Positions 11,890 through 31,140 of a stretch of DNA of 64,000 bases are shown piece after piece. The number at the start of each line of letters is the position of its first letter. Position 1 is the first letter of the stretch. Source of the DNA: Marinifilum sp. D737 (GTDB lineage: Bacteria > Bacteroidota > Bacteroidia > Bacteroidales > Marinifilaceae); assembly GCF_026672275.1 (NCBI RefSeq), contig NZ_JANQCD010000005.1, forward strand, positions 62,001 through 126,000. Direction: 5' to 3'. The notes under the pieces were generated by a model, which worked only from the letters and a program-made list of their open reading frames with translations, was not told where the DNA came from and searched no databases. The translations under genes were made by a program, and so were the position numbers.

Positions 11890-13899
11890 TTATTCACCTT
11901 TTGCAATAAAGTGGATTGCAAGTCCTCCACCGGCTGCTAGCCAAGCAGTTAATTTATCTTCACTTGTTACTTCTTTTTCAGATATTTTTATGGAGTAAGG
12001 ATTTGTTTTCCAATCGGCATTTTGCCCATCCTGGTAGCTTACTGCCAGGTATGTTTTACCTGCTTCCAGAAAGCTTAACGGAATGGATACCTCTCTTGCA
12101 GTTTCATTGCTGATGCTACCCAAAAACCAATCGCTGCTATGCCTGTCCTTGCGTGCTATGGAAATGAATTCACCTGGATCTCCCTTCAGGGCGATTGATT
12201 TCTCCCAGTCCACAGGAACCTCTTTTATGAATTGAAAAGCAGGTTGATTTTTGTAATTCTCCACCAAATCGGCAGCCATTTGCACCGGGCTGTAGATTAC
12301 CACATACAAGGCCAGTTGTTTTGCCAGGGTGGTATTTACCCTTTTGTTTGTAATGCCATACTTCTCGTAGGTTAGGCCGAAAATTCCCGGGGTAAAATCC
12401 ATGGGACCAGCCAGCAATCGGGTGAAAGGGAGTATGGTAGTGTGTGCGGGACTGTTGTTTACCGCTGACCATGGAGCATTGAACTCCTGGCCCAGGGCAC
12501 CCTCTCTCGATAAAAAGTTTGGATAGGTACGGCGCAAACCTGTTGGTTTTACTGGCTCGTGTGCGATGATGCAGATCTCATGTTCGGCAGCTTTTTTCAC
12601 TACTCTCTGGTAGTGGTTCACCATCCATTGTCCCTGGTGATACTGCCCATTTTTGATTGGCCCCACATAACCGGTTTTGATATTTTTTACATTGTGCTTG
12701 CTGTAGAATTGCAAAGCAGAATCGAGTTGCGATTCGTAGTTTTCCACATGCCCAGAGGTTTCGTGATGACCAATGATCTGTACCTTTTTCGATTTTCCAT
12801 ATTGGGAAAGCTGTGGCAGATCAAAATCAGGATAGGTTTGGGTATAGGTCCATTCTCCAAATTTTTTCCAGTCGGGATTCCAGCCCTCCACCAGAACTCC
12901 TTCGAACTGGTTGGCCGCAGCAAAGTCGATAATTTCTTTGGTGTTTTTGGTAGTGGCTCCATGTTTCGGACCTGTGAACCAGGTTTGCTGGCCCAGGTGC
13001 ATGCCCCACCAGATGCCCATGTATTTCATGGGTTTTATCCAGCTTGTGTTTGTTAATTTGTTAGGTTCATTCAGGTTGACAATGAGATGAGAATTGATCA
13101 GGTCTACTGCCTTTTCTCCAAGCTGAATGCTTCGCCAAGGCGATTGCAAGGTTTTGTTGGCTTTTACCTTTATGCCGTCGGGCCAGGGAACCAAATTGCA
13201 CTCCAGTGAGAGCGTTTTGTCTTCACTGCGCTTTAAAGTCATGGATGCATAGTCGACCAGGCCTGCTTCATGAATGCTCAGGTAGTAGCCTTTGTCCGTC
13301 TTCATGGTGAAAGGAGTCTGTACCGAGTCTACTTCACTAACTTGTGAAGTTTGGTAAGCTTTCTCGTAGCTGTCGTAATCCACCGGAGTCCACCAGGATT
13401 GATTGTTATCGGCAAGGTTGAATTCTGTAATTTCATCTACAAGGAAAAGGCTGTCTATTCCTTCCTGAGGAGGAATTTGATATCGGAATCCCAGGCCATC
13501 ATCAAACAAACGAAATTGGATTTTCATTTGCAGATGAGGAGCCTGAGTTTGTCGAAAGCTCAGGCACACATTGTTTGATTGTTCCTTAATGAATTGATCT
13601 TCTCCCCATACCGTTTCCCATAGGGTGTCGGTTGTACTGGTTTCAACAGCTTCAAGGGTGTAGTTGTTGGTTTGCTTTAGAATGTTTTGAAAGATCAGTC
13701 CCAGGTGGGAGTTGCGAATCAAAGTATCGCCACTGACAATTAGGTTGTAGAAGGGCTGGCCTTCGTGTTGCCCTACACTTACCATTAGTTTTTGATTAGG
13801 CGAAGTGAGGAGTACTTCCTGTTTTGGATGACATCCATATCCTAGAAATGCAAGTAAGACCAGGGAGGTGAGTAGTTGTTGTAGCTTCGGGCTTTTCAT
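11890..13899 (-). CDS. GH97 glycoside hydrolase, inverting alpha-glucosidase-like lipoprotein
   Basis: This 669-residue lipoprotein (lipobox FLGYGC) has an N-terminal beta-sandwich and a TIM-barrel as in SusB-type GH97. Signature stretches are YMGIWWGMHLGQQTW, IIGHHETSGHVENYE, IKTGYVGPIK and AHEPVKPTGLRRTYPNF followed by REGALGQEF. The Glu residues in HHET, AHEP and GQEF correspond to those used by inverting members, and the TGYVG segment fits that subgroup rather than retaining galactosidases. It would release glucose from alpha-linked non-reducing ends. It is the last gene of the PUL operon, separated from the GH3 gene by a stable hairpin. An alpha-glucosidase among beta-glucan enzymes is noteworthy. 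Confidence 0.9.
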   Translation of the reverse strand: MKSPKLQQLLTSLVLLAFLGYGCHPKQEVLLTSPNQKLMVSVGQHEGQPFYNLIVSGDTLIRNSHLGLIFQNILKQTNNYTLEAVETSTTDTLWETVWGEDQFIKEQSNNVCLSFRQTQAPHLQMKIQFRLFDDGLGFRYQIPPQEGIDSLFLVDEITEFNLADNNQSWWTPVDYDSYEKAYQTSQVSEVDSVQTPFTMKTDKGYYLSIHEAGLVDYASMTLKRSEDKTLSLECNLVPWPDGIKVKANKTLQSPWRSIQLGEKAVDLINSHLIVNLNEPNKLTNTSWIKPMKYMGIWWGMHLGQQTWFTGPKHGATTKNTKEIIDFAAANQFEGVLVEGWNPDWKKFGEWTYTQTYPDFDLPQLSQYGKSKKVQIIGHHETSGHVENYESQLDSALQFYSKHNVKNIKTGYVGPIKNGQYHQGQWMVNHYQRVVKKAAEHEICIIAHEPVKPTGLRRTYPNFLSREGALGQEFNAPWSAVNNSPAHTTILPFTRLLAGPMDFTPGIFGLTYEKYGITNKRVNTTLAKQLALYVVIYSPVQMAADLVENYKNQPAFQFIKEVPVDWEKSIALKGDPGEFISIARKDRHSSDWFLGSISNETAREVSIPLSFLEAGKTYLAVSYQDGQNADWKTNPYSIKISEKEVTSEDKLTAWLAAGGGLAIHFIAKGE

Positions 13900-13923
13900 G
13901 AACGATTCTGTTTGAAATAAAAC

Positions 13924-13943
13924 AGGGGGAATTGCTTCCCCCT
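13924..13943 (-). promoter_or_regulatory. Intercistronic hairpin between GH3 and GH97
   Basis: AGGGGGAA pairs perfectly with TTCCCCCT around TTGC. On the minus strand it is followed by GTTTTATTTC, so it may act as a partial terminator or mRNA-stabilising element inside the operon. Confidence 0.7.
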
Positions 13944-13953
13944 TTGTCGATTT

Positions 13954-16224
13954 TTATTTCTCCGCGATGGGAGCTGTTTGGGTTAATGTGAATTGTGATT
14001 CTTGTACCTCTTGAGAGTTGGTCCCAATGAATACTTTGAAATCACCTTTTTCTACCCCATAGGACATGTCTTTTCTGTAGAAAGCCAGATCTTCAGCAGT
14101 AATGGTGAATTCTACTTCTACACTTTCTCCTTTCGGGATAAATACTTTTTTGAACCCTTTCAATTCTTTCACAGGGCGTGTTACACTACCAACCAAATCC
14201 TGGATGTATAGCTGAACAACCTCTTCACCGTCATATTTGCCAGTGTTGCTTACTTTCACCTTGGCAATAATCTGATCGTTGGCTCCCATTGTTGTTTTGT
14301 CAAGCTCCACAGCAGAATAGTCAAATGTGGTATAACTCAATCCGTAACCAAATGGATAAAGAGGAGAGTTCGGACAATCAAGATATTTGGACGTAAACTT
14401 CTGGTTAGGATCCATAGGACGACCCGTGTGCTTCATATTGTAATAGATTGGAATCTGACCCACGTTTCTTGGGAAAGTAACCGTTAGTTTTGCTGAAGGA
14501 TTGTAATCTCCAAACAAAACATCAGCTACAGCTGGACCTGCCTGAACACCAAGATGCCATGCTTCCACAATTGCCGGAACATTGGCAGCTTCCCAGTCGA
14601 TGGTTAAAGGACGACCATTCATCATCACCATCACTACAGGTTTACCGGTTTTCATGATTTCCTTTACCAATTCAGGTTGAACACCCGGTAATTCAAGGTC
14701 GGTACGACTGGCAGCTTCACCGCTCCAATCATGAGGTTCACCTACCATAAGAACAACAGCATCAGCTTCCTTGGCAGTAGCTACCGCATTGTCGAATCCG
14801 CTACGGTCGTCACCAAACAGTTTACACCCTTCGGCATATAGAATTTCAGTTTTTCTGGAAACCGCTTTTTCAACACCTTCCATTACAGTAACCGCTTTCT
14901 CCCATTTTCCGGCACCCGACCAGGTTCCTACCAAATCGCGTCTGTTCTTAACGTATGGTCCAATAAGAGCCAGTTTCTTGATGTTCTTGTCAAGCGGAAG
15001 AATTTGATCTTCGTTTTTCAACAGAACGATACTTCTCTTTGCCAATTCACGAGATGCCTTAATGAATTCAGGCTTCATTAATGTTTTCTTCGCTCTTTTT
15101 ACATCGCTGTATTTGTAAGGATCTTCGAATAATCCCAGGCGATATTTCATTTTTAGGATCTGACGAACGGCTTCGTTGATACGAGAAGTCAGAACTTTAC
15201 CCTCTTCAACAGAAGTTGGCAAGTAGTCGTTGAAAATACCACTTTGCATGTCCATATCAACACCTGCATTAATGGCTACTTCACCAGCTTCTTTTTCATC
15301 TTTCACATTACCATGTTCAGTCATTTCCATGATAGATGTGTAATCGGTTACCACGAATCCGTCGAAATGCCACTTCTTTCTTAATACATCATCAAGCAGG
15401 TATTCGTTACCCGTACAAGGAGTTCCATCCAATTCATTGAAAGAGGTCATGAAAGTGGCTACACCAGCATTTAAAGCGGCCTTGAATGGAGGCATGTAAG
15501 TGCCCCAAAGCTCACGATTTGAGATGTCTACAGTGTGATAGTCGCGTCCTGCCTGTGCTACGCCGTAAGCAGCATAATGCTTGGCACAGGCCAGCATGGT
15601 GTTGGTTTGGCTCAGGTCATCGCCCTGGAAACCGTGAACACGTGCTTTGGCAATTTCACATCCCAGGAAGATATCTTCCCCGGCACCTTCAGCAATTCGT
15701 CCCCAACGAGGATCACGTGCAATGTCTACCATTGGAGCAAAAGTCCAGTGTAAACCTTCTGATGTTGCCTCGATGGCTGCAATGCGAGCACTTTTTTCGA
15801 TCCATTCAAGATCCCATGAACAGGCTTCAGCCAATGGGATCGGAAAGGTTGTCCAGTGACCGTGAATCACGTCGTATCCGAAAAGCAATGGAATACTTAA
15901 ACGGGTATTCTCCATGTTTTCCTTTTGCAAGCGGTAGGTAAAGTCTGCGCTATAGGCATTAAAGATGGCACCTACTTTTCCTTTTTTCACATCCTCAACG
16001 TAATTGTTGTTGGTGATTGGTCCTGTTATGTCCCAGCTACTTGAGAACAGGGTAAGCTGTCCCAGTTTTTCCTCTAGTGTCATCTTTTGTAAAAGAGAAT
16101 CCACAAAGGCTTCCATTTTAGTCTCTCTCTCCCAGGGAGCCGGTTTTTTGTTGACCTTCGCTGAAAGGGTCAAGGCTCCACTCATCACTAATCCTACTAG
16201 AAGTAATAAAGATTTTAGTCGCAT
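13954..16224 (-). CDS. GH3 beta-glucosidase (BglX-like)
   Basis: This 756-residue protein has a cleavable signal peptide (LLLVGLVMSGALTLSA), so it is probably periplasmic. The order is GH3 N-terminal barrel, (alpha/beta)6 sandwich and C-terminal fibronectin-III-like domain (SNTGKYDGEEVVQLY, VKELKGFKKV). The nucleophile Asp is in DGFVVTDYTSIMEM. The barrel starts with MTLEEKLGQL and has DIARDPRWGRIAEGAGED. Beside GH144-type enzymes its likely job is splitting sophoro-oligosaccharides to glucose, as shown for Bacteroidota GH3 enzymes in beta-1,2-glucan loci; specificity here is inference. Hairpins flank it on both sides in the operon. Confidence 0.93.
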   Translation of the reverse strand: MRLKSLLLLVGLVMSGALTLSAKVNKKPAPWERETKMEAFVDSLLQKMTLEEKLGQLTLFSSSWDITGPITNNNYVEDVKKGKVGAIFNAYSADFTYRLQKENMENTRLSIPLLFGYDVIHGHWTTFPIPLAEACSWDLEWIEKSARIAAIEATSEGLHWTFAPMVDIARDPRWGRIAEGAGEDIFLGCEIAKARVHGFQGDDLSQTNTMLACAKHYAAYGVAQAGRDYHTVDISNRELWGTYMPPFKAALNAGVATFMTSFNELDGTPCTGNEYLLDDVLRKKWHFDGFVVTDYTSIMEMTEHGNVKDEKEAGEVAINAGVDMDMQSGIFNDYLPTSVEEGKVLTSRINEAVRQILKMKYRLGLFEDPYKYSDVKRAKKTLMKPEFIKASRELAKRSIVLLKNEDQILPLDKNIKKLALIGPYVKNRRDLVGTWSGAGKWEKAVTVMEGVEKAVSRKTEILYAEGCKLFGDDRSGFDNAVATAKEADAVVLMVGEPHDWSGEAASRTDLELPGVQPELVKEIMKTGKPVVMVMMNGRPLTIDWEAANVPAIVEAWHLGVQAGPAVADVLFGDYNPSAKLTVTFPRNVGQIPIYYNMKHTGRPMDPNQKFTSKYLDCPNSPLYPFGYGLSYTTFDYSAVELDKTTMGANDQIIAKVKVSNTGKYDGEEVVQLYIQDLVGSVTRPVKELKGFKKVFIPKGESVEVEFTITAEDLAFYRKDMSYGVEKGDFKVFIGTNSQEVQESQFTLTQTAPIAEK

Positions 16225-16261
16225 TTAATTAATAGTTTTATAAATTATTTCATGTTTGAAT

Positions 16262-16284
16262 AAGCGGGGCAAGCCGCCCCGTTT
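16262..16284 (-). promoter_or_regulatory. Intercistronic hairpin between the two-module lipoprotein and GH3
   Basis: AAGCGGGGC pairs with GCCCCGTTT around a 5-base loop. It is GC-rich in an AT-rich setting and lies 37 bp before the GH3 start. Confidence 0.65.
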
Positions 16285-16312
16285 ACTTAGTTTTAAAGTT
16301 GTTTTTCGCTTG

Positions 16313-17383
16313 TTATTCCCAACGGATGTTGTCCAGGTAATACTTGTCTGTTGCACCTCCGTCATTTTTCCCTGCATTGAAGAAGAGAACCACTTTGTTA
16401 TGGTTTTCATTTGCCTGAGAGCTAAAATCAACGGTATACTCAACCCATTCTCCGGTTGTGGTAATATCCATCCAGATTTCATGGGCAGCAGAGGTTCCAC
16501 CTTCCAGTTTGGCAAGGAATTGAACTGCCTTGTCGGAGTGAATCATCAGTTTCAATTTGTTCTTGGTAGAAAGGTCAATGGCTTTTCCATAGTCAACCAA
16601 AAGGAAATCCCAGGCATTTGTTCCGTCATCGTTAAACTCACCAATTTTCTCGCTTTGGTTGATTCCTGATTTGTATAGGTTGTCTATTCCAGCCTCCAGT
16701 TTTCCTGTGAACGTATAGTTGTGCTGACATTCAAAATCAGAGATGATGCTCATGTCTTTTTCTACACCTTCACATGGGTCCACAACTATAGGGAAGTCAT
16801 TTTCAACAAATCGAATGTCATCAATTAGATAGATTTCTTCGCTAGCACCATTATCAGAGCCTGCGTTAAAGAAAAGAACCAGTTTGGTGTTGCCCATGTC
16901 AATGGCTTCTCTAAAGTTAAAGGAACACTCTACCCACTCATTGATTTTTTCAATCTGAAAGTCTTGTTCTACTGTTAAACTTCCGCCTTCCAATTTGGCA
17001 ATCAGGCTTCCTGCTTTGGGAGCAAAAACTTTTATTTTAAGTTGGCTTCGTTCTGTAAGGTTGTATGCAGTACCAAAGTCTACTAAGAGGTTGTCCCATG
17101 CCTGGCTTCCATCATCTATGAATTTACCAACCTTATCAGAATTGTTGATGCCAGATTTGTTGGTGTTGTCAATAGCAGGAGCCTGAGTCTCCTTTGTTGC
17201 ATCTGCACCTATAAAAAAGTTTTGCTGACATTCGAAATCAGAAATAATACTCTCGTCTTTTACTATGTCTGCACAAGGTTCAACAGGTTCAATTATTTCC
17301 TCTTCATCAGAAGAACTGCATGCTATTGTAAATGTGGAAAATATTGCAATAATTAAGCTTAATTGTCTCGTTTTTAAAATCAT
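16313..17383 (-). CDS. Two-module surface lipoprotein, probable glycan-binding protein
   Basis: This 356-residue lipoprotein (lipobox-like FTIACSSSDEEE) has two homologous modules of about 155 residues. Each opens with a D/E-PC segment and SIISDFECQ, continues with KSGIN..SEK-type and AWD.LLVD(F/Y)G segments, and ends with VVLFFNAG and a YLID/YLDNIR strand. This beta-sandwich-like pattern resembles carbohydrate-binding domains often found with glucanases. There are no catalytic motifs. Its place between GH144 and GH3 genes suggests a surface glycan-binding protein that delivers polymer to SusCD. The duplication could give avidity. It is not assigned to a numbered CBM family. Confidence 0.75.
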   Translation of the reverse strand: MILKTRQLSLIIAIFSTFTIACSSSDEEEIIEPVEPCADIVKDESIISDFECQQNFFIGADATKETQAPAIDNTNKSGINNSDKVGKFIDDGSQAWDNLLVDFGTAYNLTERSQLKIKVFAPKAGSLIAKLEGGSLTVEQDFQIEKINEWVECSFNFREAIDMGNTKLVLFFNAGSDNGASEEIYLIDDIRFVENDFPIVVDPCEGVEKDMSIISDFECQHNYTFTGKLEAGIDNLYKSGINQSEKIGEFNDDGTNAWDFLLVDYGKAIDLSTKNKLKLMIHSDKAVQFLAKLEGGTSAAHEIWMDITTTGEWVEYTVDFSSQANENHNKVVLFFNAGKNDGGATDKYYLDNIRWE

Positions 17384-17424
17384 AAGTCAAAATTTTAGGT
17401 TTTGAATTGGGTTAGGGAATCCCT

Positions 17425-17449
17425 GGACAAGAGCATTAAGCTCTTGTCC
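17425..17449 (-). promoter_or_regulatory. Intercistronic hairpin between GH144 and the two-module lipoprotein
   Basis: GGACAAGAGC pairs perfectly with GCTCTTGTCC around a 5-base loop; there is no T-run. Confidence 0.7.
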
Positions 17450-17478
17450 TAAGGAATATACTAACTAATTGAATTGTG

Positions 17479-18807
17479 TTATTTTGTTAGGCTAAGGCCT
17501 GCTTTATCCAAGGCTATACTTATTTCAGGGGTTTTCATAAAAGTATCCCATATGATACCGGAACGGTAATTTTCTATCATTACAACAATTGGTCCCTGAT
17601 CAATGGCCAGGTGTGATTTGGCCACCCATCCTTTACTAATGTTGAATGCATCTTTGAAGCCATACTGACCAAAAAGATTGTATTCATCCATTTTTTCATA
17701 GAAGAACCTCATGGCATCCAGAGTATATTCAGGTGTATAAACAATAGACGAGATGGCTGCAGTAGGGGTGATGGTTCCATTGTCATTATTTGGAGCATGT
17801 GCCATATAACCACCAGGAGTGTCACTTGCGGTTAATCCCCAGCAATTCTCTCCATAATAACTGTAAGTGCTGTGATTACTGATACACCACTGACGGTTCA
17901 AAAGTGTCTGCTTTTTATTTCTTTCAAAGTAAGACGAATAGCCGGCCAATGACATGTGTTGATCCGTGATGTGAGGAGTTAATCCCAAATACGAATAATG
18001 TGTAAAGAATAGAGGTCCTCCATAATCATTACGTTTTGTTGGATCTAATTCTCTAACGTAGTTGTTTCCAATCCATCCTTTTTCATAAACACTTTTGTCT
18101 ATTGGATGAGTAGGTGATGCCAAAGCCAGGATATAAGCAATGTGAGTTTCGTTAAATGAACGCAAAGGGAGGTTCATTTCAAAATGATAGTTAGGAGACC
18201 AATGCCATAGCAGGTATTCTCCCGATTGGGCAAACCAATCCCACTCAACGCCTTCCCACAGTCGGGTAATGGTTGCTCTAAGCTTTTGTTCCTTTTCGGT
18301 TTCTGCATCAAAATACTCTCTGGCAGTCAACATTCCCTGTACCAGGAAGGCTGTTTCTACAAGATCAGCACCATTATCTCTTGGTGAGAAAGGTATGGTT
18401 TCTCCTGTTGTACCACTTAACCAATGAGACCATGCACCATGATAACGAGTCGCTTTATTCTCCAGGAAATCTGTTATTTTGATTAGGCGATCTACAGCTT
18501 GCTGGCGGGTGATATAGTTACGTTCAACACCTGCAACGATAGCCATGATCCCAAAACCGCTTCCTCCGCTTGTTACCGTGTCAGGTTTCTCGTTACTACG
18601 TTCACGAGCCAATCCGGAAATCGGGTGTCCGAAATCCCAAAAGTAGGCAAAGGTTTTCTCTTGAACGATGTCGATAAGTTCTTCATCGGTAAGCTTAGCT
18701 TCAGGCTCTACTTCTTTATCAGGATAAATTTCATCAGAGCTACTGCTCGAACAGCCAATGATCAGGCAAAGTGAGAGTAATAGGTATATTTTGATTAAAT
18801 GTGACAT
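17479..18807 (-). CDS. GH144-type (glycoamylase-fold) beta-1,2-glucanase lipoprotein
   Basis: This 442-residue lipoprotein (LCLIIGCSSSSSD) belongs to the glycoamylase family (PF10091, largely CAZy GH144), an (alpha/alpha)6-barrel. Motifs shared with the paralogue at 29770-31140 are KTFAYFWDF, LVETAFLVQGML, WHWSPNYHF, FNETHIAYILA, FFTHYSYLGL, WGLTASD and AIDQGPIVVMIENYRSG. Characterised bacterial members are endo-beta-1,2-glucanases or sophorose-releasing exo-enzymes. The lipid anchor suggests outer-membrane attachment. It follows SusD in the operon, with a 10-bp-stem hairpin between them. The fold assignment is firm; the exact linkage and endo/exo mode are inference. Confidence 0.85.
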   Translation of the reverse strand: MSHLIKIYLLLSLCLIIGCSSSSSDEIYPDKEVEPEAKLTDEELIDIVQEKTFAYFWDFGHPISGLARERSNEKPDTVTSGGSGFGIMAIVAGVERNYITRQQAVDRLIKITDFLENKATRYHGAWSHWLSGTTGETIPFSPRDNGADLVETAFLVQGMLTAREYFDAETEKEQKLRATITRLWEGVEWDWFAQSGEYLLWHWSPNYHFEMNLPLRSFNETHIAYILALASPTHPIDKSVYEKGWIGNNYVRELDPTKRNDYGGPLFFTHYSYLGLTPHITDQHMSLAGYSSYFERNKKQTLLNRQWCISNHSTYSYYGENCWGLTASDTPGGYMAHAPNNDNGTITPTAAISSIVYTPEYTLDAMRFFYEKMDEYNLFGQYGFKDAFNISKGWVAKSHLAIDQGPIVVMIENYRSGIIWDTFMKTPEISIALDKAGLSLTK

Positions 18808-18834
18808 TGCTTATTTGTTTTAATAGGTAGTTGT

Positions 18835-18876: not shown

Positions 18877-20349
18877 TTAGTAACCGTTGTTTTGCTTTAG
18901 CATTCCTTCACTTAATTCTATCTGACGTTGAGGAATTGGGAACACTTCGTGCTTTCCATCTACAAAGTTTTTACCGTGGGCACGCAGGACTTCACCAGCT
19001 CTTCCCTGGCGAACCAAATCGAAGAAACGATCATGTTCCATCCCTAATTCCACTCTTCGCTCGTGCCAGATTTTATTTTTTAGATCATCACCAGTTGCAT
19101 TAGGTAATCCCACTCTTGAACGAACTTTGTTCAAAGACTGTAAAGCCTGACTTGCTTGCCCCAATTCGTTAGCAGCTTCAGCATTAATTAGAAGAACTTC
19201 GGCGTAGCGGAAAATTCGAAGGTTTTTACTGGTTTCCCAATCATTCCCATTGAATGTTTCCTGAGTTTTACTGAAGTAAGCTTTTTCATTGTAACGAGGG
19301 TTTGGTGTTTCTGAGTTGATAACCACTCCATCCCACATGGTTTCAGCAGGGAAAATGATGGTTGCCTCTTTTCTGGGATCTCCGTCTTCATATGCTTTTT
19401 CCAATGATTCAGAAGGAGTGTTGAATCCCCATCCTAGTTGACCACGAACACCCTGACAAACTGCATAGCCCTGAATTCCTTTGTTTGGGTTTGTTCCAGA
19501 AGCCTGCACTTCAAAAATCGACTCTGTACTGTTTTCACCGGACTCTCTCCAGATGGTTGCATAATCGCTTACCAAAGCATATTCTCCTGATTGCATCACT
19601 TCATTGGTTAAGCGTAGTGCTTCACTCCAGTTTTTCTGATACATGTATACTTTTGCAAGGAAGGTTTTTGCAGCTCCTTTGGTAGCACGTCCTAAATCGT
19701 CCATGCTCATTTGGCTTCTTTCCTGAAGATGTGTTACTCCAAATTGCAAATCGGAAATAATCAGCTCATAAATTTCTTCTTTGCTTGCTCTGGTTCTTCC
19801 ATTAGCAAGATCCTCTGGATTACCTGCATCAGGTAGCTTGTCAATTTTAGGAACACCACCAAAACATCTTACAAGTGTCCAATAATAGTATGCTCTTAAA
19901 AATCTTGCTTCACCTTCCAGTCGATTTCTTAAGTTTTCATCGATTTCCAGGTTTGGGATTACATTAAGCGCTTGATTTGCGAAAGAAATACCTCTGTAAT
20001 TAGATCCCCAAATTTCATTAAATGAGATGCTGGAAGCTGTGAAATTAAAATCGTCCAATTCATGTTTGTCTCCACCGGTATCGCCAGGATCACTCCCTTT
20101 ATCGGCATCATCAGAGGTAATACTTGAAACTCCAATCCATGAAAATGTGTGTTGGTCCCAATTCTGTAAATTGCTGTATACGGCATTTACAAGTTCGGTA
20201 GCTGTATTTTCTGAACTTGAGAAATAATCTTCAGGAGTTTGATTTACCTGTGGATCTATCTCAAGAAATTCATCGCTGCACGCTGCGGTCATTAGTAACA
20301 AAATGCTCAGTAGGCATGCAATGGTTATATCTAAAATTTTGTTGTTCAT
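18877..20349 (-). CDS. SusD/RagB-like nutrient-binding lipoprotein
   Basis: This 490-residue lipoprotein (LLLMTAACSDEFLEI) forms the extracellular lid of a SusCD importer. Family features are FLEIDPQVNQTPEDYF at the start, repeated TPR-like helices (EARFLRAYYYWTLVR, AAKTFLAKVYMYQ), RYAEVLLINAEAANELG and the C-terminal LNKVRSRVGL and PIPQRQIEL segments. It lies 39 bp downstream of the SusC gene. No hairpin separates the two, unlike the enzyme genes that follow. Confidence 0.96.
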   Translation of the reverse strand: MNNKILDITIACLLSILLLMTAACSDEFLEIDPQVNQTPEDYFSSSENTATELVNAVYSNLQNWDQHTFSWIGVSSITSDDADKGSDPGDTGGDKHELDDFNFTASSISFNEIWGSNYRGISFANQALNVIPNLEIDENLRNRLEGEARFLRAYYYWTLVRCFGGVPKIDKLPDAGNPEDLANGRTRASKEEIYELIISDLQFGVTHLQERSQMSMDDLGRATKGAAKTFLAKVYMYQKNWSEALRLTNEVMQSGEYALVSDYATIWRESGENSTESIFEVQASGTNPNKGIQGYAVCQGVRGQLGWGFNTPSESLEKAYEDGDPRKEATIIFPAETMWDGVVINSETPNPRYNEKAYFSKTQETFNGNDWETSKNLRIFRYAEVLLINAEAANELGQASQALQSLNKVRSRVGLPNATGDDLKNKIWHERRVELGMEHDRFFDLVRQGRAGEVLRAHGKNFVDGKHEVFPIPQRQIELSEGMLKQNNGY

Positions 20350-23404: not shown

Positions 23405-24271
23405 TTAAATGTATAAGGTAATTGGGCTTTCAATTTGAGCGGCCACATCAATCACGTTTACATCTAACTTGGTTTTGGTTATATCCATTTTGATTTCGAA
23501 AGTGTATTTGTGATTGGCAGTCAGTTCAGCGGTTGAAAAAGTTTTATTAATCGTAGGAAGTACGCCTTCAGCATCAACCAAATTGACAACTACCGTGTAA
23601 GTGTCAGTTCCATAATCAGCGATGGTGGTTGCCGGAGGAGTTGTCATTTTCAGATCAGCAATAAAATGTCCTGTGCGAGTTTCTGCAGGAGTATATTTCA
23701 GGTGTTTATCAGCCCATGATGCTTTTACCTCAGCTTCAATTGTTTCATAGCCTGCAGGAATTCCCGCATCACCAGCCTGAATAAAATCAACGTCAATCAA
23801 AACTGTTGTTTGTAGAATAGCAAAAGATAGAGTTGTTACACTGTTTTGTGTAACTGTGAAAGGATTGTAAACACCTTTATAGAAGGGAGTATCCCATCCG
23901 GCACCTCTATAGTCAGAGTTGCCATCTCCATCGATAACTCCAATCCATCCAGAGTCAATGGTAAGATTAAAGTTGTCTCCTGCTGGCATTAAAATTCCTT
24001 CAGCAGGAAAAGTTCCTAGTTTATACGAGCTGTTGTTGTAGTCAGTACCTGTAATAAAGACTCCAAAATCATTGGTTTCCATTCCATACACAGTACTAGC
24101 TTTTGTAGCATTAGATTCTGGTACAACATCCATGGAAACCTGAGGAGTGATTTGTAATGTTCCTGTTGCACTTTCTTCTGTCATGTCATGTTCCGAGCAA
24201 GACGAGAATAGTAAAATAGAAGCTGTAAAAAGACTTGCTATTAATTTACGGGTTTGTGGTAAGGTTTGCAT
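23405..24271 (-). CDS. DUF4493-like surface lipoprotein, first gene of the PUL operon
   Basis: This 288-residue lipoprotein (lipobox LLFSSCSEHD) has the pattern of DUF4493-type proteins: GTLQITPQVSMD near the start, DFGVFITGTDY, a proline-containing WDTPFYKGVYNPFTV and then a beta region ending in MDITKTKLDVNVIDV. Its function is unknown; the family is often found with surface glycan systems. Placement 49 bp upstream of SusC makes it the operon leader, so it may be a surface glycan-binding or adhesive component. The upstream region carries the conserved block shared with the gene at 24909-26249. Confidence 0.6.
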   Translation of the reverse strand: MQTLPQTRKLIASLFTASILLFSSCSEHDMTEESATGTLQITPQVSMDVVPESNATKASTVYGMETNDFGVFITGTDYNNSSYKLGTFPAEGILMPAGDNFNLTIDSGWIGVIDGDGNSDYRGAGWDTPFYKGVYNPFTVTQNSVTTLSFAILQTTVLIDVDFIQAGDAGIPAGYETIEAEVKASWADKHLKYTPAETRTGHFIADLKMTTPPATTIADYGTDTYTVVVNLVDAEGVLPTINKTFSTAELTANHKYTFEIKMDITKTKLDVNVIDVAAQIESPITLYI

Positions 24272-24535: not shown

Positions 24536-24764
24536 TCGATCGCTGTTTTTATCGTGAAGGAAGAAATAGAAAGGCGGCAGTGTTTTACAGAATTATTTGT
24601 GGCAATCAGAATAGATGCTTCCATTATTTCCTGCTTTTTGAAATGTCCAAATTCGACTTTTACAGGTGTAAGGAGAGAGGCTAAGTAAATAGAGGTTGAG
24701 AGAGGAACCGACATAGAGGTTTTCTACTGTCATAAATAAATGACTCCTCTGGTTTTGCTATATG
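24536..24764. other. Spacer upstream of region A, no convincing gene
   Basis: A minus-strand 64-codon frame (24520-24714) overlaps the conserved distal block, has no recognisable features and is probably spurious. Nothing else is supported here. Confidence 0.4.
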
Positions 24765-24806
24765 AAATCAGATTGTAGCAATACTTTCGCTACAATCTGA
24801 TTTTTT
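24765..24806. terminator. Perfect 15-bp-stem hairpin with T-run on the plus strand
   Basis: AAATCAGATTGTAGC pairs perfectly with GCTACAATCTGATTT around a 9-base loop, then TTT. It lies about 100 bp downstream of the minus-strand gene ending at 24909, so it probably ends that transcript. The T-run, however, is better on the plus strand, where no gene precedes it. Confidence 0.7.
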
Positions 24807-24908
24807 CTATTGTATTTAGAATATCTCAAATGGCAGATTATCTCTGCTAAAAAATGTATATCTGCCCTTTTTGATTCTAAATAATTGTTCTTTGGGTTAG
24901 AAGCCTTG

Positions 24909-26249
24909 CTATTGTCCTAAAATAGACGAGTTAAGATTGCAATTTGTATAGAAGAATTGCGCTCCTAAATTGTCGGGAAGTGTGGCAAGTCCGTAAAGCA
25001 TTGTAGAGAAATCTACCGCTTGAATGTAAGAACATCTCAAACTTGTGTTTAAGCGACTGTATCTCCATAGTACTTTTTTGGAAGGGCTTCCTGGAAGACT
25101 GTAAACAGAAGGGCCGTTACCGTTGTCGTAAAGGCTGATCAAGTCGTTCGTGCTTTGTGAATAGATTGGGATAAAACCTGCAATGATATGTGGTGAAACT
25201 ATTTGTTGATTGTTTCTATCTATGGCATTCGCAGAATAACCACCTCCAGGATTTTCTCCAGCTCCTAATCCCCATTCATAACTATTAATTCCGGGAGATA
25301 TTTTGGTCCAAAACAGGGAGTCAGACTTTCGAAAATTGTCGAAATAAGTCATGTAGTCAGAATTATTTTTGAAATAATTGCAATAGTAATAGGTAAATAG
25401 AGGAATAAAGTTAGAGACAAAACTCCCATCAGAAATTAAATCAATTCCCCAGTAATTTTCTGGATGAATAAATGCTGATGAAGGAGAAGCATAATGAGAA
25501 TTCCAATACGTTTGTGACTTTAAATATCCCGCATTGGAAGAATCTACATTTTTCGCGAGCCATGCTACAATCATGTATTCATTATAGGCTCCTGTCGTAG
25601 CACTACCATTTCCGAATTCATCCAATACCATATAGAGTTGTTGTCCATCAGAAGATATGGCTGCTGTGAAATCCATATTGCTTAGTAGTAAATTGATTTT
25701 ATTTACAATAGATGTATTGTTGGAATAGTAATTTTTGCAGAATATCAGTCCCATTGCGAAAATGGCATTGTCAATAGTGCTGTATTCTTCACTCCAGCTG
25801 CCATCTTTAAATCCTGTGTTTACATTAAAATAGCGACGAAATAATCCATTGGTATTTGTTGCGCCATTGTTTTTAAAATTTAGGAATGTGTTTAATGTGG
25901 AAGTGACCAGGGTTTCACTGGTGTTTTCCCAATTAACAGCATCATTTGTTTTTTTATACATTGAATCTGCAATGCAAAGGGAGATTAGGCCTACTCCATT
26001 AGCAGCGATAGAGCCTGGTTTGTTGTATGCATTGTTTAGTGCCAATGCATCAAGGTATACACCATTGGAATTTCGCATTAACTTGATTGCATGATAGCTA
26101 TCTTCAAATAGCTTATTTACTATTGAGTTTGATGATTTTGCTTTTTTAGTCGTAGCTTCTTGGATAGAGAGATCTGTATTGATGTAATCATCCTTTTGGC
26201 ATGAATACAAACAAACCCATACCATTAAAAAAAGAATTGTTTTTTTCAT
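24909..26249 (-). CDS. Diverged glycoamylase-fold (GH144-related) lipoprotein
   Basis: This 446-residue lipoprotein (lipobox VCLYSCQKDD) can be aligned by eye with the two GH144-type proteins here. WGLGAGENPGGGYSA matches WGLTASDTPGGYMAH in position, YNEYMIVAWLA matches FNETHIAYILA, and YSTIDNAIFAMGLIF matches the LVETAFLVQGML segment. Important residues differ: VETAF has become IDNAI, and the terminal IDQGPIV is VDFSTML. It may be a distant beta-1,2-glucanase-clan enzyme with another specificity, or a non-catalytic glycan binder. It is transcribed as a single gene from region B. Confidence 0.55.
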   Translation of the reverse strand: MKKTILFLMVWVCLYSCQKDDYINTDLSIQEATTKKAKSSNSIVNKLFEDSYHAIKLMRNSNGVYLDALALNNAYNKPGSIAANGVGLISLCIADSMYKKTNDAVNWENTSETLVTSTLNTFLNFKNNGATNTNGLFRRYFNVNTGFKDGSWSEEYSTIDNAIFAMGLIFCKNYYSNNTSIVNKINLLLSNMDFTAAISSDGQQLYMVLDEFGNGSATTGAYNEYMIVAWLAKNVDSSNAGYLKSQTYWNSHYASPSSAFIHPENYWGIDLISDGSFVSNFIPLFTYYYCNYFKNNSDYMTYFDNFRKSDSLFWTKISPGINSYEWGLGAGENPGGGYSANAIDRNNQQIVSPHIIAGFIPIYSQSTNDLISLYDNGNGPSVYSLPGSPSKKVLWRYSRLNTSLRCSYIQAVDFSTMLYGLATLPDNLGAQFFYTNCNLNSSILGQ

Positions 26250-26428
26250 CGGTTTTAGTTTTGTAGTTTATAAAATATTTAATTTTCATGCTCTTAGATT
26301 CTATGCCCACATATTGGCATGATGAAAAAGCATGAAATAGCAGAGATCTTACAATTGATTAGTTTCTAGATTCATTATTTGTATTGTGTGCTTGTGGAAG
26401 TAAATATTTCAGGATATGTATAGAAATA

Positions 26429-26600
26429 AAAAAAAAGCACCCCAACTTGAGCTTAACACATGTTAGTGTCCGGGGATGTTGCTCTAACTGTGCAGCATTG
26501 CAAAGGGATTTGCAATGTGAAAAAAAATGGAATAGGTTAAATTCTGAAGGATTGTTGTGTTACTGTTGTGGTGTATTTTTGCGATTAAAAACCTTTTTAG
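26429..26600 (-). promoter_or_regulatory. Divergent upstream region B with the same two conserved blocks
   Basis: Minus-strand reading gives GTTAAGCTCAAGTTGGGGTG followed by about ten T residues (proximal, 26429-26455). At 26548-26600 there is AAAAAGGTTTTTAATCG then ACACCACAACAGTAACAC (distal). Both match region A at 24367-24535 with similar spacing of about 100-125 bp. The distal block overlaps the -33 area of the plus-strand regulator promoter, which would suit autoregulation. Confidence 0.5.
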
Positions 26601-26610
26601 AGTATATTTG
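26576..26610 (+). promoter_or_regulatory. Promoter of the PUL regulator gene
   Basis: TTTTTG (26576-26581) and TATATTTG (26603-26610) match the Bacteroidota -33 TTG and -7 TAnnTTTG elements with a 21-bp spacer, about 116 bp before the ATG at 26727. Confidence 0.55.
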
Positions 26611-26726
26611 GCACTCGGATAAGAAGAAACCTAATATTTAGTTTACGTAGAAAGATATATCTACTATAAAAAGTGACATTGGAAAAACAATATATTGGTT
26701 GTTCTTAATTACTCCAACATTAATAT

Positions 26727-29612
26727 ATGTCTATGAAAACCCGCAATAACCGAATCCTGATACTATTACTGTTTTTTTTATGCTTTTTTGGATTGCATAC
26801 TGGAAAAGCCGGTACCAAACACCTGTTAATGCCATTTGTGAAGAATTTTTCCAAATTGGAATATCACGGGGCAAATCAGAATTGGGATGTTTGTCAGGGA
26901 ATTAATGGTGAAATGTATTTTGCCAATTCAGATGGATTGTTGGAGTATGATGGTGCAAGCTGGAAATTGTATCCTTTGCCAGCCGGACAACTTGTTCGTT
27001 CTGTAACTGTGGATTCTGCCGGACGTGTTTATGTTGGTGCTCATGAAGAGTTTGGGTACTGGAAGAAGAATAAACAGGGACAATTAGAGTATTTTTCATT
27101 GATTGATCTCGTAGAGGTTCATCAGCTTCGAAATCAGGATATCTGGAAGATATGCGTTTGGAATGGCAAGGTTTACTTTCAATCATTTGCCGAAATTTAT
27201 GTGTACGATGGAGAAAAGTTGACGACCATTAATACTCCGGCTAATGTTTTTTCACTCTTCAAAATTAGAGATCGCCTATTGGTTAGTATCCAGCATATGG
27301 GCTTATATGAATTTCAGCAAGATTCATTGGTTGCCTTAAAAGGAACAAACCAGTTAGCACCGAAGACAATTAATATTGCGATCCCCTATGGAGAAAAGGG
27401 CATTCTGCTTGGGACTGAACTTGGAGGTCTGTATAGATACGAAGATGAACAAATGACTCCATGGAAAAATGATGCAGATGAATTTTTGAAGAATTTTCAG
27501 CTTAATAAAGCCGCAACGGTTTCCATAAATGATAAGGAGTATTACCTGTTTGGAACTATAACTCAGGGTTTGGTCGTTCTTGATAAGAATGGTGGAATTT
27601 ATAGCCATATTACTAAAGGTCATGGCTTGCAGAATAATACGATTCTTGGAATTAAGGTAGACCAGTATAATAATTTATGGCTGAGTTTAGATAATGGTAT
27701 CGATTTTATCAACTTGAATTCATCTTTTCGTTACTACCATGACAGAAGCGGAGAGTTAGGTACCGTGTATAGTGCTGCCATATTTAATGAAAAATTGTAT
27801 CTGGGGACAAATCATGGTTTGTATAGTGCCGTTTGGGATGCCAACTTATTGCAGCTAAAGACCGACTTTTCTCTTGTTAAGAACACACAAGGTCAGGTTT
27901 GGAATCTGAAAGTAGTGGATGATGTACTTTTTTGTGGACACAATAATGGAACATTTCTAATTTCTGCAAAAGGTATCAAGCGCATTTCAAATGTTTCGGG
28001 AGGTTGGATTCTAAAAGAAGTTCCCGGAAAGTCGGACATGTTAATCCAGGGAACCTATATTGGCTTGGTTATTTATAAGAAGAGTGGAGGAGTATGGAGA
28101 ATGTCTCACATGGTGAGAAGCTATCATGAGCCAACCGAGTTTCTGGAGTTCGATTATAAAGGAAATCTATGGACCAGTCATGCCTACAAGGGACTGTATA
28201 AGCTTACACTGAATTCAGATTTGAGTGCTGTGCTAAAAAGTGAATACTATAATAAAGAGAACGGACTTCCGGACGATGCAAATATCAATGTCTTCAAGGT
28301 GGATCAGCAGGTGGTTTTTACTACTAAGGGAGAATTGTTTTCATATGATTACAATCAAGAAAAACTTGCCTCTTTTACCAAGCTAAACGATGGTTTGAAA
28401 GATTTTAAGGACGCTCATAAGATTATTTCCATTGATAACAGAAATTATTGGTTCTTTAAAAAGGGGAAATGTGCACGTGTTTTAATGGATCATGGAGAGA
28501 TTCAGAGTATCGATGCCCTGTCTTTTCAATTGTTAAGAGGAAGTACTCTGGATGGCTATGAAAATATTATAGGCCTGGGACGAGGTGATTATTTGATTTG
28601 TCAAGACGCTGGTTTTTCTATTTTTTCATCTCATCAAACCGATAAGGCATTGTCACTGCACAATCATAAAGTGATGTTGCGAAAGATTACCTGCAATTCC
28701 CAGACCTCAAAGTTACATGAAGCATTAGATCTGGACGGGGGAAGTGAAATAGCCAATTCAAAAAATAATATGAGCTTCGAATTCGCACTTCCGGTTTACC
28801 GTTTTGCTAAATTGAATTACCAATGGAAGTTGGAAGATTACGATGTGTTTTGGTCCGACCCTTCGGATCGTACTTTGGTGGATTATTCAAAACTGCCTCA
28901 TGGCAAGTATACATTTAAGGTGAGAGCGACTGACAGTTATGGTAGTGTGTCGAAAATCGCATCTTATTCATTTACCATATTGCCTCCCTGGTATTTGTCA
29001 AGGTTGGCTAAAATCATTTATTGGATTCTGTTTTTTGCCCTTATTGGTGGATTTAGAGTAGTTTACTATTATAAACTCGATAAGCAGAAGAGGAAATATT
29101 ATTTGAAACTTCAGGAGGAGAATGAAGAGAAGATCATTAAGCTAAAGAATGACCATTTAAGGGAGGAAATTGAGAATAAATCGAAAGAGTTGGCCAATTA
29201 TACCATGATGGTGACCAAAAAGAATGAATTGCTCAACCAGTTAAAGGAAGAGTTGGATAAGCTGGGGGCCTATGTGATTGCTGCAGCTGCCAAAAAACGA
29301 GTTGCTGCCATTAATAAATTGATCCAAAGGGGAATTTCCAGTGAGGATGAATGGAAAGTGTTCAATGAGAATTTTGATAAGGCCAATGAAATTTTTCTTC
29401 AAAGTCTGAAGGCTGATTTCCCTGAGCTTACACCCAATGATCTTCGGTTTTGTGCTCTGCTTCGGATGAATATGACTTCTAAGGAAATAGCCAATCTATT
29501 GAACCTTTCACCGCGTAGCGTAGAGGTGAAAAGATACCGCTTGCGTAAAAAACTTAATCTGGAACACGAAGAGAATTTGGTGGAATTTCTGATGGGAATG
29601 AAAAAGGAATAA
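26727..29612 (+). CDS. Membrane-spanning PUL regulator: beta-propeller, Y_Y_Y, coiled coil, LuxR-type HTH
   Basis: This 961-residue protein resembles the sensor half of hybrid two-component systems but has no histidine kinase or receiver. After a signal/anchor segment come two-component-propeller repeats (about residues 40-640, e.g. GLLEYDGASWKLYPL and NLWLSLDNGIDFIN), a Y_Y_Y domain (about 684-754), one membrane helix (about 757-777), a long cytoplasmic coiled coil and a GerE/LuxR-type HTH at the C-terminus (NMTSKEIANLLNLSPRSVEV). It would bind an oligosaccharide outside and control transcription directly. It is divergent from the diverged glycoamylase gene, and shared DNA blocks upstream of that gene and of the operon are its best candidate targets. 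Confidence 0.85.
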   Translation: MSMKTRNNRILILLLFFLCFFGLHTGKAGTKHLLMPFVKNFSKLEYHGANQNWDVCQGINGEMYFANSDGLLEYDGASWKLYPLPAGQLVRSVTVDSAGRVYVGAHEEFGYWKKNKQGQLEYFSLIDLVEVHQLRNQDIWKICVWNGKVYFQSFAEIYVYDGEKLTTINTPANVFSLFKIRDRLLVSIQHMGLYEFQQDSLVALKGTNQLAPKTINIAIPYGEKGILLGTELGGLYRYEDEQMTPWKNDADEFLKNFQLNKAATVSINDKEYYLFGTITQGLVVLDKNGGIYSHITKGHGLQNNTILGIKVDQYNNLWLSLDNGIDFINLNSSFRYYHDRSGELGTVYSAAIFNEKLYLGTNHGLYSAVWDANLLQLKTDFSLVKNTQGQVWNLKVVDDVLFCGHNNGTFLISAKGIKRISNVSGGWILKEVPGKSDMLIQGTYIGLVIYKKSGGVWRMSHMVRSYHEPTEFLEFDYKGNLWTSHAYKGLYKLTLNSDLSAVLKSEYYNKENGLPDDANINVFKVDQQVVFTTKGELFSYDYNQEKLASFTKLNDGLKDFKDAHKIISIDNRNYWFFKKGKCARVLMDHGEIQSIDALSFQLLRGSTLDGYENIIGLGRGDYLICQDAGFSIFSSHQTDKALSLHNHKVMLRKITCNSQTSKLHEALDLDGGSEIANSKNNMSFEFALPVYRFAKLNYQWKLEDYDVFWSDPSDRTLVDYSKLPHGKYTFKVRATDSYGSVSKIASYSFTILPPWYLSRLAKIIYWILFFALIGGFRVVYYYKLDKQKRKYYLKLQEENEEKIIKLKNDHLREEIENKSKELANYTMMVTKKNELLNQLKEELDKLGAYVIAAAAKKRVAAINKLIQRGISSEDEWKVFNENFDKANEIFLQSLKADFPELTPNDLRFCALLRMNMTSKEIANLLNLSPRSVEVKRYRLRKKLNLEHEENLVEFLMGMKKE

Positions 29613-29769
29613 TTTTACTTTTAAATGAAGCATTTGTCTTCTTTTGAACTAAAGCTTGTTGATTTTCATAAGAAATACCTGACTGGAATTGTGTTCAGTT
29701 ATAATCATATGTGTGGTTTTGTTTTTGATATGTCTGCAAAATATATTTTGAATTACTAAAAAAGATGAT

Positions 29770-31140
29770 ATGAATTTATTAGCAAAAAGCAAAGAGTATG
29801 TTAAGAATTTAACTATTTATCTAGTTTTAATTTTTATGATGATCGGTTGTTCTAATAGTAAAATGGAACCTTTTTCTCCTGAAATACCAACAGAGGAGGA
29901 AGAGATTGAAAAAATATCAACGGATGAACTTTTGGACCTGGTTCAAAAGAGAACATTCAATTATTTTTGGGATTTTGCAGAACCTAATAGCGGGTGTGCT
30001 AGAGAACGTTCTCAAGATGATTCGTATGACGGTAATTCACCTCGATTGGTAGCTACAGGTGCTACAGGATTTGGTATATCGTGCTTTCCTGTTGCCGTTA
30101 CAAGAGGATGGATAACACGGGAAGAGGCAATAGGCCGGATGAATAAAATATGTTCTTTCCTGGAGAATTGTGACAGTTATCATGGTGCATACGGGCACTG
30201 GTATTATGGTGATAATGGCCATATCAGACCTTTTTCAGGGCAAGATGATGGAATTGATTTGGTTGAGACTGCTTTTCTTATGCAGGGTATGTTAATCAAC
30301 AGACAATTCTTTAATGGTGAAAATCAGACCGAAATTGATCTTAGGAATCGAATTACTGCACTTTGGGAAGCTGTTGAATGGAATTTCTTCGATTCGGGTG
30401 ATAACATTTTATCATGGCATTGGTCACCAAATCATAATTTTGCTATGGGGCATAAAGTTGGAGGTTGGAATGAGGCTTTGATTGTTTATGTTTTAGCTGC
30501 AGCCTCTCCAACGCATACAATCAATAAAGGAACATATGAAAATGGTTGGTTTGAAAGGGGCGGTAAAATGTATAATAATGGTAGATTTTACGGCATCAAG
30601 TTACCATTGGGAATAGATTATGGTGGGCCAATGTTTTGGTCTCATTATTCATTTATTGGATTAGATCCTAGAAATCTGGAAGATCAATATGCAAATTATT
30701 GGGAACAAGTTACCGCACATGCCCGCATCAACTATGCCTATTGTAAAGCGAATCCTAAGGGGTATGAAGGTTATGGTGGCGATAGCTGGGGGCTGACATC
30801 AAGCGATAATTACTCTGGATATGGAGGTCATCATCCTGGAAATGATGTAGGGGTAATAGCACCTACAGCAGCATTGGCATCATTCCCTTACACCCCTGAG
30901 GAATCGACAAAGGCTTTGGAATATTTCTATTATAAAATGAATCGCAAGCTGTGGGGGACTTATGGTTTTTTTGATGCTTTCTCTGAGCATTACGATTGGT
31001 ATTCTGATGGTTATATTGGTATTGATCAAGGACCAATTGTAGCTATGATAGAAAATTACAGAACTCAATTGCTTTGGAATCTTTTTATGGCCGATCAAGA
31101 AGTTAAAGATGGACTAACAAAATTGGGATTTAGTTTTTAA
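29770..31140 (+). CDS. GH144-type (glycoamylase-fold) beta-1,2-glucanase lipoprotein, second copy
   Basis: This 456-residue lipoprotein (lipobox MMIGCSNSK) parallels the enzyme at 17479-18807 throughout: RTFNYFWDFAEPNSG, DLVETAFLMQGML, WHWSPNHNFAMG, WNEALIVYVLAAASPTH, DYGGPMFWSHYSFIGLDP, WGLTSSDNYSGYG and IDQGPIVAMIENYRTQ. All motifs are intact, so activity is expected. Divergence from the other copy suggests a different mode, for example endo versus sophorose-releasing exo action. It lies 157 bp downstream of the regulator in the same direction and may have its own promoter. Confidence 0.85.
   Translation: MNLLAKSKEYVKNLTIYLVLIFMMIGCSNSKMEPFSPEIPTEEEEIEKISTDELLDLVQKRTFNYFWDFAEPNSGCARERSQDDSYDGNSPRLVATGATGFGISCFPVAVTRGWITREEAIGRMNKICSFLENCDSYHGAYGHWYYGDNGHIRPFSGQDDGIDLVETAFLMQGMLINRQFFNGENQTEIDLRNRITALWEAVEWNFFDSGDNILSWHWSPNHNFAMGHKVGGWNEALIVYVLAAASPTHTINKGTYENGWFERGGKMYNNGRFYGIKLPLGIDYGGPMFWSHYSFIGLDPRNLEDQYANYWEQVTAHARINYAYCKANPKGYEGYGGDSWGLTSSDNYSGYGGHHPGNDVGVIAPTAALASFPYTPEESTKALEYFYYKMNRKLWGTYGFFDAFSEHYDWYSDGYIGIDQGPIVAMIENYRTQLLWNLFMADQEVKDGLTKLGFSF

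Follow-up and report, generated by a model that had tools for sequence, protein, structure and literature searches.

The 64,000-nucleotide stretch of Marinifilum sp. D737 DNA that we analysed (the window) carries, at positions 11890-31140, one locus whose target is very probably beta-1,2-glucan. It holds a SusCD pair, two GH144 proteins, a GH3, a GH97, a GH194-type protein and a sensor-regulator (Table 1), and with susC adjacent to susD and both accompanied by enzymes and a regulator, it is a SusCD polysaccharide utilization locus (PUL). The beta-1,2-glucan substrate, part of the earlier sequence-only reading, is well supported by the GH144 pair with its conserved acids, the GH194-type glucanase, the GH3 and the recurrence of this core elsewhere. 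The further idea of an alpha-1,6-closed cyclic form does not follow to the same degree; it is a coherent extension that gains some support from the subtype of the GH97. The GH144, GH3 and SusCD core is a common, already-known kind of cluster, and the GH97 and the GH194-type enzyme are the unusual additions to it.

Table 1 Features of the locus and its neighbours, in window positions.
Feature	Positions	Strand	Basis
Predicted GH97 alpha-glucosidase, inverting type, PspAG97A-like (P0002)	11890..13899	-	Pfam GH97 N, catalytic and C domains
GH3 beta-glucosidase, BglX type (P0005)	13954..16224	-	Pfam GH3 N, C and Fn3-like
Lipoprotein-like protein, CBM_4_9-type domain (P0006)	16313..17383	-	PF02018 26.0 bits, cut-off 25.9
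Predicted GH144 beta-1,2-glucanase, lipoprotein-like (P0003)	17479..18807	-	PF10091 236 bits; CpSGL 447 bits
SusD-like glycan-binding lipoprotein (P0008)	18877..20349	-	PF07980, PF14322
SusC-like TonB-dependent transporter (P0009)	20389..23355	-	TIGR04056 923 bits, cut-off 368
Unknown lipoprotein-like protein (P0007), first gene before SusC, same strand	23405..24271	-	
Perfect 13-base inverted repeat, 9-base loop, after GH194-type gene	24767..24801	-	read directly
Putative GH194-type beta-1,2-glucanase, lipoprotein-like (P0001)	24909..26249	-	PgSGL3 (8xuk) match
Sensor-regulator, Reg_prop + Y_Y_Y + LuxR-type HTH (P0010)	26727..29612	+	PF07495, PF07494, PF00196
Second predicted GH144 beta-1,2-glucanase, lipoprotein-like (P0004)	29770..31140	+	PF10091 247 bits; CpSGL 467 bits
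AraC-type regulator, neighbour, membership unsure	31535..32407	-	PF12833
GluP-type glucose/galactose MFS transporter, neighbour, membership unsure	32655..33881	+	TIGR01272 368 bits, cut-off 203
ROK kinase, glucokinase-like, neighbour, membership unsure	33912..34862	+	TIGR00744 239 bits, under cut-off 260

A common beta-1,2-glucan core

Every open reading frame called in the sequence-only reading is intact and lies where it was placed, and Pfam and NCBIfam matches confirm the SusCD pair, the GH3 and two GH144-type proteins in a single locus. To that reading we add P0006, P0007, P0010 and, beyond the end of the range, the three neighbouring genes of Table 1. P0003 and P0004 both match PF10091 (cut-off 27), the only two such matches in the genome, and belong to GH144 by sequence. 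Both resemble CpSGL, the GH144 endo-beta-1,2-glucanase of Chitinophaga pinensis (E 6.4e-133 and 5.9e-139). Residues D144, D148, E151 and E220 of P0003 align with CpSGL D135, D139, E142 and E211, its four functional acids, and D159, D163, E166 and E235 of P0004 align with the P0003 four at equal spacing. Both proteins are predicted to hydrolyse beta-1,2-glucan; in contrast to CpSGL, the present locus has two copies, in genes of divergent orientation. Another GH144, XcSGL, is reported to have acted on beta-1,2-glucan only (PMC12102758).

The GH3 scores 852 bits against NCBIfam BglX (cut-off 666), and its PDB relatives include JMB19063 (812 bits) and 5xxl (763 bits). Our phylum survey covered 112 GH144 loci from 107 of 136 GH144-positive genomes, several of the loci being shortened by contig ends. 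Relatives of the GH3 were present in 68 of these loci, of SusC in 74, of SusD in 73 and of the P0010-type regulator in 42. P0006, a possible surface glycan-binding protein, has relatives in two (L110, L172), and its structure model is too poor to use (mean pLDDT 51.4). P0007 has no Pfam or NCBIfam match above cut-off, and no relative of it was kept in the 112 loci at E 1e-8.

GH144 PULs have been named beta-1,2-glucan PULs and described as frequent (PMC6499787). The Bacteroidota PULs described in the available text of PMC6499787 and PMC8072126 combine SusCD with GH144 and have beta-1,2-glucan as predicted substrate, a Maribacter example having one GH3, two GH144 and susCD. The present locus differs in its added GH194-type glucanase (relatives in 0/112 sampled loci) and inverting GH97 (GH97 in 3/112), and neither a sulfatase nor another polysaccharide-backbone family occurs among the locus proteins scanned. 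A starch-type locus with GH13 and SusE/SusF proteins lies in the same window (57754-63998).

The two additions: a GH194-type protein and a GH97

P0001 had been taken for a third, diverged GH144 relative, a claim that we abandon: it lacks PF10091, matches no Pfam family up to E 1, and shows no meaningful BLASTP similarity to the neighbouring P0004 (E 0.47). Its nearest solved protein is PgSGL3 (8xuk), the GH194 founder from Photobacterium gaetbulicola (H744_1c0222), matched at 194.9 bits (E 2.3e-56) over residues 34-435. Besides PgSGL3, the solved-protein search (E up to 10) gave XcSGL only, the sole GH144 among the matches, at 15.9 bits and E 0.047. We therefore read P0001 as GH194-type by sequence, and as a putative beta-1,2-glucanase. 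D160 and E224 fall in the columns of PgSGL3 chain residues 128 and 194, which are D148 and E214 at a constant offset of 20, so both GH194 catalytic acids are kept. The related claim that all three glucanase-like proteins share one fold stands by homology only, as the structure prediction for P0001 (mean pLDDT 38.5) is too poor to use. PgSGL3 itself is reported to have acted on beta-1,2-glucan only (PMC12102758).

P0001 is rare. It was found at full length in a single genome out of 395 for the phylum and a single one out of 198 for the order, each time the genome analysed here; a further relative, at 64%, is in one Paludibacter MAG, and a genome-contig scan with P0001 as query gave one relative. 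In contrast to PgSGL3, this GH194-type protein stands beside a SusCD system, is lipoprotein-like and has a single named relative (L088).

P0002 carries PF10566 together with both partner domains, and we predict it from sequence to be an inverting-type GH97 alpha-glucosidase. Its nearest solved relative is PspAG97A of Pseudoalteromonas sp. K8 (5hqc/5hq4, 675 bits), followed by FjGH97A (546) and SusB (497). All four inverting-type glutamates (E380, E448, E466, E472) are present, in agreement with the type first assigned to it, and loop-N is absent; PspAG97A shares both features. We take these residues to comprise the general-base glutamates, a calcium-ligand glutamate and the general acid. The changed residue of 5hqb and 8wg1 aligns with E472. 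In contrast, L003, another GH97 of the same genome, lacks equivalents of E380 and E448. The genome has four GH97s, and one of the other three (L006) has loop-N.

PspAG97A is reported to act strongly on alpha-1,6 linkages and on kojibiose, and it also cleaves maltose (PMC10316084). In an enzyme resembling PspAG97A, loss of loop-N is said to make the pocket wider, and PmGH97, likewise lacking loop-N, cleaves dextran without preferring it (PMC13421300). Given the wide specificity of PspAG97A and the dextran behaviour of PmGH97, the subtype leaves an alpha-1,6 target unproven. The available literature placed PspAG97A in no beta-1,2-glucan context. FjDexUL, the dextran locus of Flavobacterium johnsoniae, likewise has a GH97 exo-alpha-glucosidase (FjGH97A) in a SusCD-type PUL, but it encodes GH66, GH31 and GH65, has dextran as substrate, and its FjGH97A has loop-N (PMC10316084).

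The GH97 gene lies 54 bases after the GH3 gene on the same strand. A hairpin sits in the gap and could lower GH97 expression, and past the GH97 stop an inverted repeat with a T-rich stretch behind it can be seen by eye. The repeat after the GH194-type gene is a possible terminator; its 9-base loop exceeds the limits of our hairpin scan, which gave 21 terminator-like hairpins in the region, near the number in shuffled sequence (15.6, sd 4.3). G+C is 45.1% in the GH97 and 43.8% in the GH3, against 35.9-41.3% in the rest of the locus.

GH97 enzymes beside GH144 in other genomes

GH97 occurs in 3 of the 112 sampled GH144 loci, where about 0.93 would be expected from GH97 density, a lower bound because at most three GH97 candidates were scored per genome (in this genome three, against four in a separate scan). 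We rejected the co-location as significant by count (P ~0.07); an enrichment this weak means that co-location alone proves little, and the placement of the GH97 after the GH3, together with its subtype, matters more as evidence. GH97 also directly follows GH3 in two other GH144 loci, with gaps of 70 bases (L151) and 144 bases (L183). Among the matches listed in the order-level survey, judged by eye and reaching E ~3e-55 for GH97, no GH97 outside the window came closer than 20 kb to any full GH144 match; in one genome (G424) a GH97 lies ~18.5 kb from a weak PF10091 match (61.9 bits) in a 1901-residue frame. The locus of the closest SusD found (G103) has a GH2, a GH43 and a sulfatase beside its GH97.

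In the four other loci where a GH97 is linked to GH144, the GH97 has loop-N, and it falls apart from P0002 in our tree, a partial sample of 36 rows (near relatives of P0002, linked GH97s and two others of its genome) in which P0002 sits on a long branch. The GH97s of L119, L151 and L183 form one supported clade. A single clade for all GH144-linked GH97s was rejected: the tree needs three label changes, two of them forced by supported branches, and 0% of 200 bootstrap trees need one. In all but 2 of 500 shuffles the linkage label was less clustered than in the tree. Around the nearest GH97s, where 55 of the 79 partial ORFs were scanned (leaving out L064, L072, L077, L082, L083, L085, L086 and some short ones), the neighbours are mixed, with GH99 in three and a GH31-type N-terminal domain in two, and PF10091 was not among the best 25 of 65 families listed.

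Proposed pathway and competing explanations

The pathway that we infer, in its localisation, its order of steps and its alpha-1,6 role, would begin with the GH144 and GH194-type lipoprotein-like enzymes cutting the glucan chain. SusD, and perhaps also the CBM-like P0006, would bind the pieces and SusC would import them. The GH3 would then take glucose off the non-reducing ends, and the GH97, downstream of the GH3, would remove alpha-linked glucose that would otherwise stop it. The best-fitting source of this block is the one alpha-1,6 linkage by which certain bacterial cyclic beta-1,2-glucans, such as the periplasmic glucan of Cereibacter sphaeroides, are closed. Once an endo-acting enzyme had opened the ring and the GH3 had trimmed the product, its non-reducing end would carry an alpha-1,6-glucosyl residue. 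The exo beta-glucosidase BtBGL is reported not to hydrolyse the alpha-1,6-closed glucan (PMC11228985). We propose this closing bond as the GH97 target tentatively. To the same tentative degree, the locus may be a dedicated system for alpha-1,6-closed cyclic beta-1,2-glucan, in which the ring would be opened and shortened by GH144 together with a GH194-type enzyme acquired by horizontal transfer, a GH97 with a wide pocket would clear the alpha bond stopping the GH3, and GH97 would have been recruited more than once; the recruits would be of PspAG97A type here and of SusB/FjGH97A type in L119, L151 and L183. Our search of the available literature found no locus for this glucan.

It is quite possible, if short of probable, that the locus is a beta-1,2-glucan PUL whose GH97 has a different target: another alpha-glucosyl decoration, or alpha-gluco-oligosaccharides imported along with the glucan. 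The kojibiose and maltose activities of PspAG97A and the lack of preference of PmGH97 for alpha-1,6 chains agree with such a role, as do the enzymes beside GH97 in the G103 locus and a Bacteroides xylanisolvens GH144 PUL with a GH35 reported inactive on beta-1,2-gluco-oligosaccharides (PMC11739564). The position of the GH97 directly after the GH3 speaks against such a role, and the available literature yielded no other alpha-glucosylated beta-1,2-glucan. Less credible is a chance neighbour, a general starch or dextran alpha-glucosidase that landed at the operon end. We consider this unlikely: a co-location rate near chance, the higher G+C of the GH97 and the GH3, the hairpin between the two genes and the starch-type genes in the window would suit it, but those genes are ~44 kb distant, the genome has three other GH97s, one of them with loop-N, and P0002 follows the GH3 closely on the operon strand. 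That the PUL serves a polysaccharide other than bacterial beta-1,2-glucan, with GH144 and GH194-type proteins of new specificity, seems very improbable. It has been proposed that the GH144 substrate has a sulfated relative in marine settings (PMC6499787), but the strict selectivity of XcSGL and PgSGL3, the catalytic acids kept here and the family content of the proteins scanned all speak against it.

The alpha-1,6-closed glucan is reported to be vital for Xanthomonas campestris infection of model plants, and the enzyme making it was published in 2024 (PMC11228985). The available text of that paper and of PMC11842490 names no enzyme removing its alpha bond and does not mention GH97. If the dedicated-system reading is true, the PUL would supply an enzyme set to analyse or remove this glucan, and the periplasmic, virulence-linked glucans of some proteobacteria would be food for other bacteria. 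The glucose released may enter through the neighbouring GluP-type transporter and then be phosphorylated by the ROK kinase; elsewhere, GluP-like proteins lie beside GH144 in 2 and ROK-like proteins in 1 of the 112 loci.

Locus layout and possible transcription units

The host genome comprises 5.08 Mb in 130 contigs; its SusCD systems, together with a Paludibacter relative of one locus protein, point to a member of the Bacteroidota. All of the open reading frames named in the sequence-only reading were found intact, and the claimed locus is real (see table). In the minus-strand run from P0007 to the GH97, adjacent genes are separated by 39-95 bases. The GH194-type gene has its own place upstream of P0007 and may form a transcription unit of its own, since a perfect 13-base inverted repeat and a 637-base gap come after it. 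Two GC-rich hairpins lie on either side of GH3, one of them inside the 54-base GH3-GH97 gap. Inspection by eye shows, downstream of the GH97 stop codon, a short inverted repeat together with T-rich sequence, which is absent from the terminator-scan list. Across the region, terminator-like sites numbered 21 versus 15.6 (sd 4.3) in shuffled sequences, so that no individual site is proof of termination. N-termini were called lipoprotein-like by eye. G+C content is 45.1% in GH97 and 43.8% in GH3 (11890-16224), compared to 35.9-41.3% in the remaining locus genes, and this rise may be a sign of separate acquisition.

The adjoining AraC, GluP and ROK genes may be incidental neighbours, because similar GluP proteins occur near GH144 in only 2 of 112 sampled phylum-level GH144 loci and ROK in 1. 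Close to the window end, a starch-type locus starts (57754-63998), comprising a pair of SusE/SusF-type proteins and a GH13 whose C-terminus carries a sorting domain of a secretion system.

Features of the locus and its surroundings (window coordinates; minus-strand run in transcription order)
Feature	Position	Strand	Remark
GH194-type P0001	24909-26249	-	upstream of P0007
P0007	24271-23405	-	first gene of the run
SusC		-	
SusD		-	
GH144 P0003	17479-18807	-	
CBM_4_9-like P0006	16313-17383	-	
GC-rich hairpin	16261-16285		between P0006 gene and GH3
GH3 P0005	13954-16224	-	
GC-rich hairpin	13924-13943		between GH3 and GH97
GH97 P0002	11890-13899	-	
Sensor-regulator P0010	26727-29612	+	
Second GH144 P0004	29770-31140	+	
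AraC, GluP and ROK genes	31535-34862		next to the locus

Two GH144 enzymes and a rare GH194-type glucanase

P0003 and P0004 share 44% identity, and each carries counterparts of D135, D139, E142 and E211 of the characterised GH144 enzyme CpSGL (numbering as given in the available text of PMC12102758), which bears out their assignment to GH144. The supposed third, diverged GH144 proved to be something else: P0001 matches PgSGL3 (H744_1c0222), described there as the GH194 founder, over residues 34-435, and its D160 and E224 share alignment columns with PgSGL3 D148 and E214. Different-family glucanases in one region have precedent, as the locus tags of PgSGL3 and the GH192 enzyme PgSGL1 are two apart (PMC12102758).

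Of the 395 genomes sampled from the phylum, 136 have PF10091 matches and 21 have P0001 matches of any kind; among the 198 from the order, the numbers are 51 and 13. The only full-length match in either sample is in its own genome. The others cover part of the protein at no more than 28.2 bits (phylum) or 33.1 bits (order), and several lie within GH144 genes (e.g. in genomes G013, G131 and G280). Among named genomes, the sole relative (64%) is in L088, a 14.5-kb stretch of a Paludibacter MAG where none of the other nine of ten locus proteins has a relative. That protein (L088:406-5092) bears a long C-terminal extension whose end resembles a secretion sorting domain, and its gene comes after ECF sigma factor-like and FecR-type partner-like genes rather than a SusCD pair (both by eye).

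In the 112 GH144 loci (113 if L088 is counted), relatives were found of SusC (74), SusD (73), GH3 (68), the regulator (42), GH97 (3) and the CBM-like protein (2), and of the GH194-type protein in none. The available text of PMC6499787 (also PMC10405439 and PMC8072126) presents PULs with GH144 as frequent and aimed at beta-1,2-glucan, and the assignment of this locus as a beta-1,2-glucan PUL of common kind is well supported. Its unusual parts are the GH194-type glucanase, rare among sampled genomes, and a GH97 of the PspAG97A type. A full-text literature search, judged on titles and abstract openings, returned no paper on GH194 in a Bacteroidota PUL and none on alpha-1,6-closed glucan use by a locus combining GH144 and GH97, although 11 papers mention both of these families.

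GH97 subtype and a possible role on alpha-1,6-closed glucan

The locus GH97 carries E380, E448, E466 and E472; in L003, another GH97 encoded by this genome, E380 and E448 have no counterparts. Loop-N, a GH97 loop, is missing in P0002 and likewise in 26 of 29 near GH97s (L059-L087). By contrast, each of the remaining GH144-linked loci (L119, L151, L183 and L203) has a GH97 that keeps the loop; the GH97 of L183 is closest to FjGH97A (840 bits) and that of L151 to SusB (810 bits).

An exo beta-glucosidase is reported not to hydrolyse alpha-1,6-closed beta-1,2-glucohexadecaose (PMC11228985, available text). We infer a sequence in which an endo-glucanase would open the alpha-1,6-closed ring and GH3 would then trim the opened chain from its non-reducing end. 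The old closing bond would become a terminal alpha-1,6-glucosyl group, expected to resist GH3, and an exo-acting, alpha-1,6-capable GH97 would remove it. According to the portions of the sources available, PspAG97A has good activity on alpha-1,6 bonds (PMC10316084) and a loop-N deletion of its kind widens the pocket (PMC13421300); against such a role, PmGH97, which also lacks loop-N, showed no preference for alpha-1,6 chains (PMC13421300). Participation of the locus GH97 in alpha-1,6-closed glucan use is a good testable idea, which we hold tentatively and consider somewhat improbable.

From GH97 density, 0.93 would be expected in the 112 GH144 loci against the 3 observed (L119, L151 and L183; P of 3 or more ~0.07), and the true expectation is higher, since at most three GH97 candidates were scored per genome. 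It is therefore the position and subtype of GH97, rather than its frequency, that make the case for it. In a fourth case, genome G103, GH97 lies ~10 kb past GH144 inside a larger locus (L172 with L203), which holds GH2, GH43, sulfatase, GH97, sugar transporter and esterase-like genes besides GH144 and GH3. Its SusD is the closest found to that of the window (54%), and one of its GH144 proteins reaches 60%. Esterase-like (alpha/beta hydrolase) genes lie between GH144 and GH3 at L172:14048-14839 and L183:11504-12217, and could point to acylated beta-1,2-glucans.
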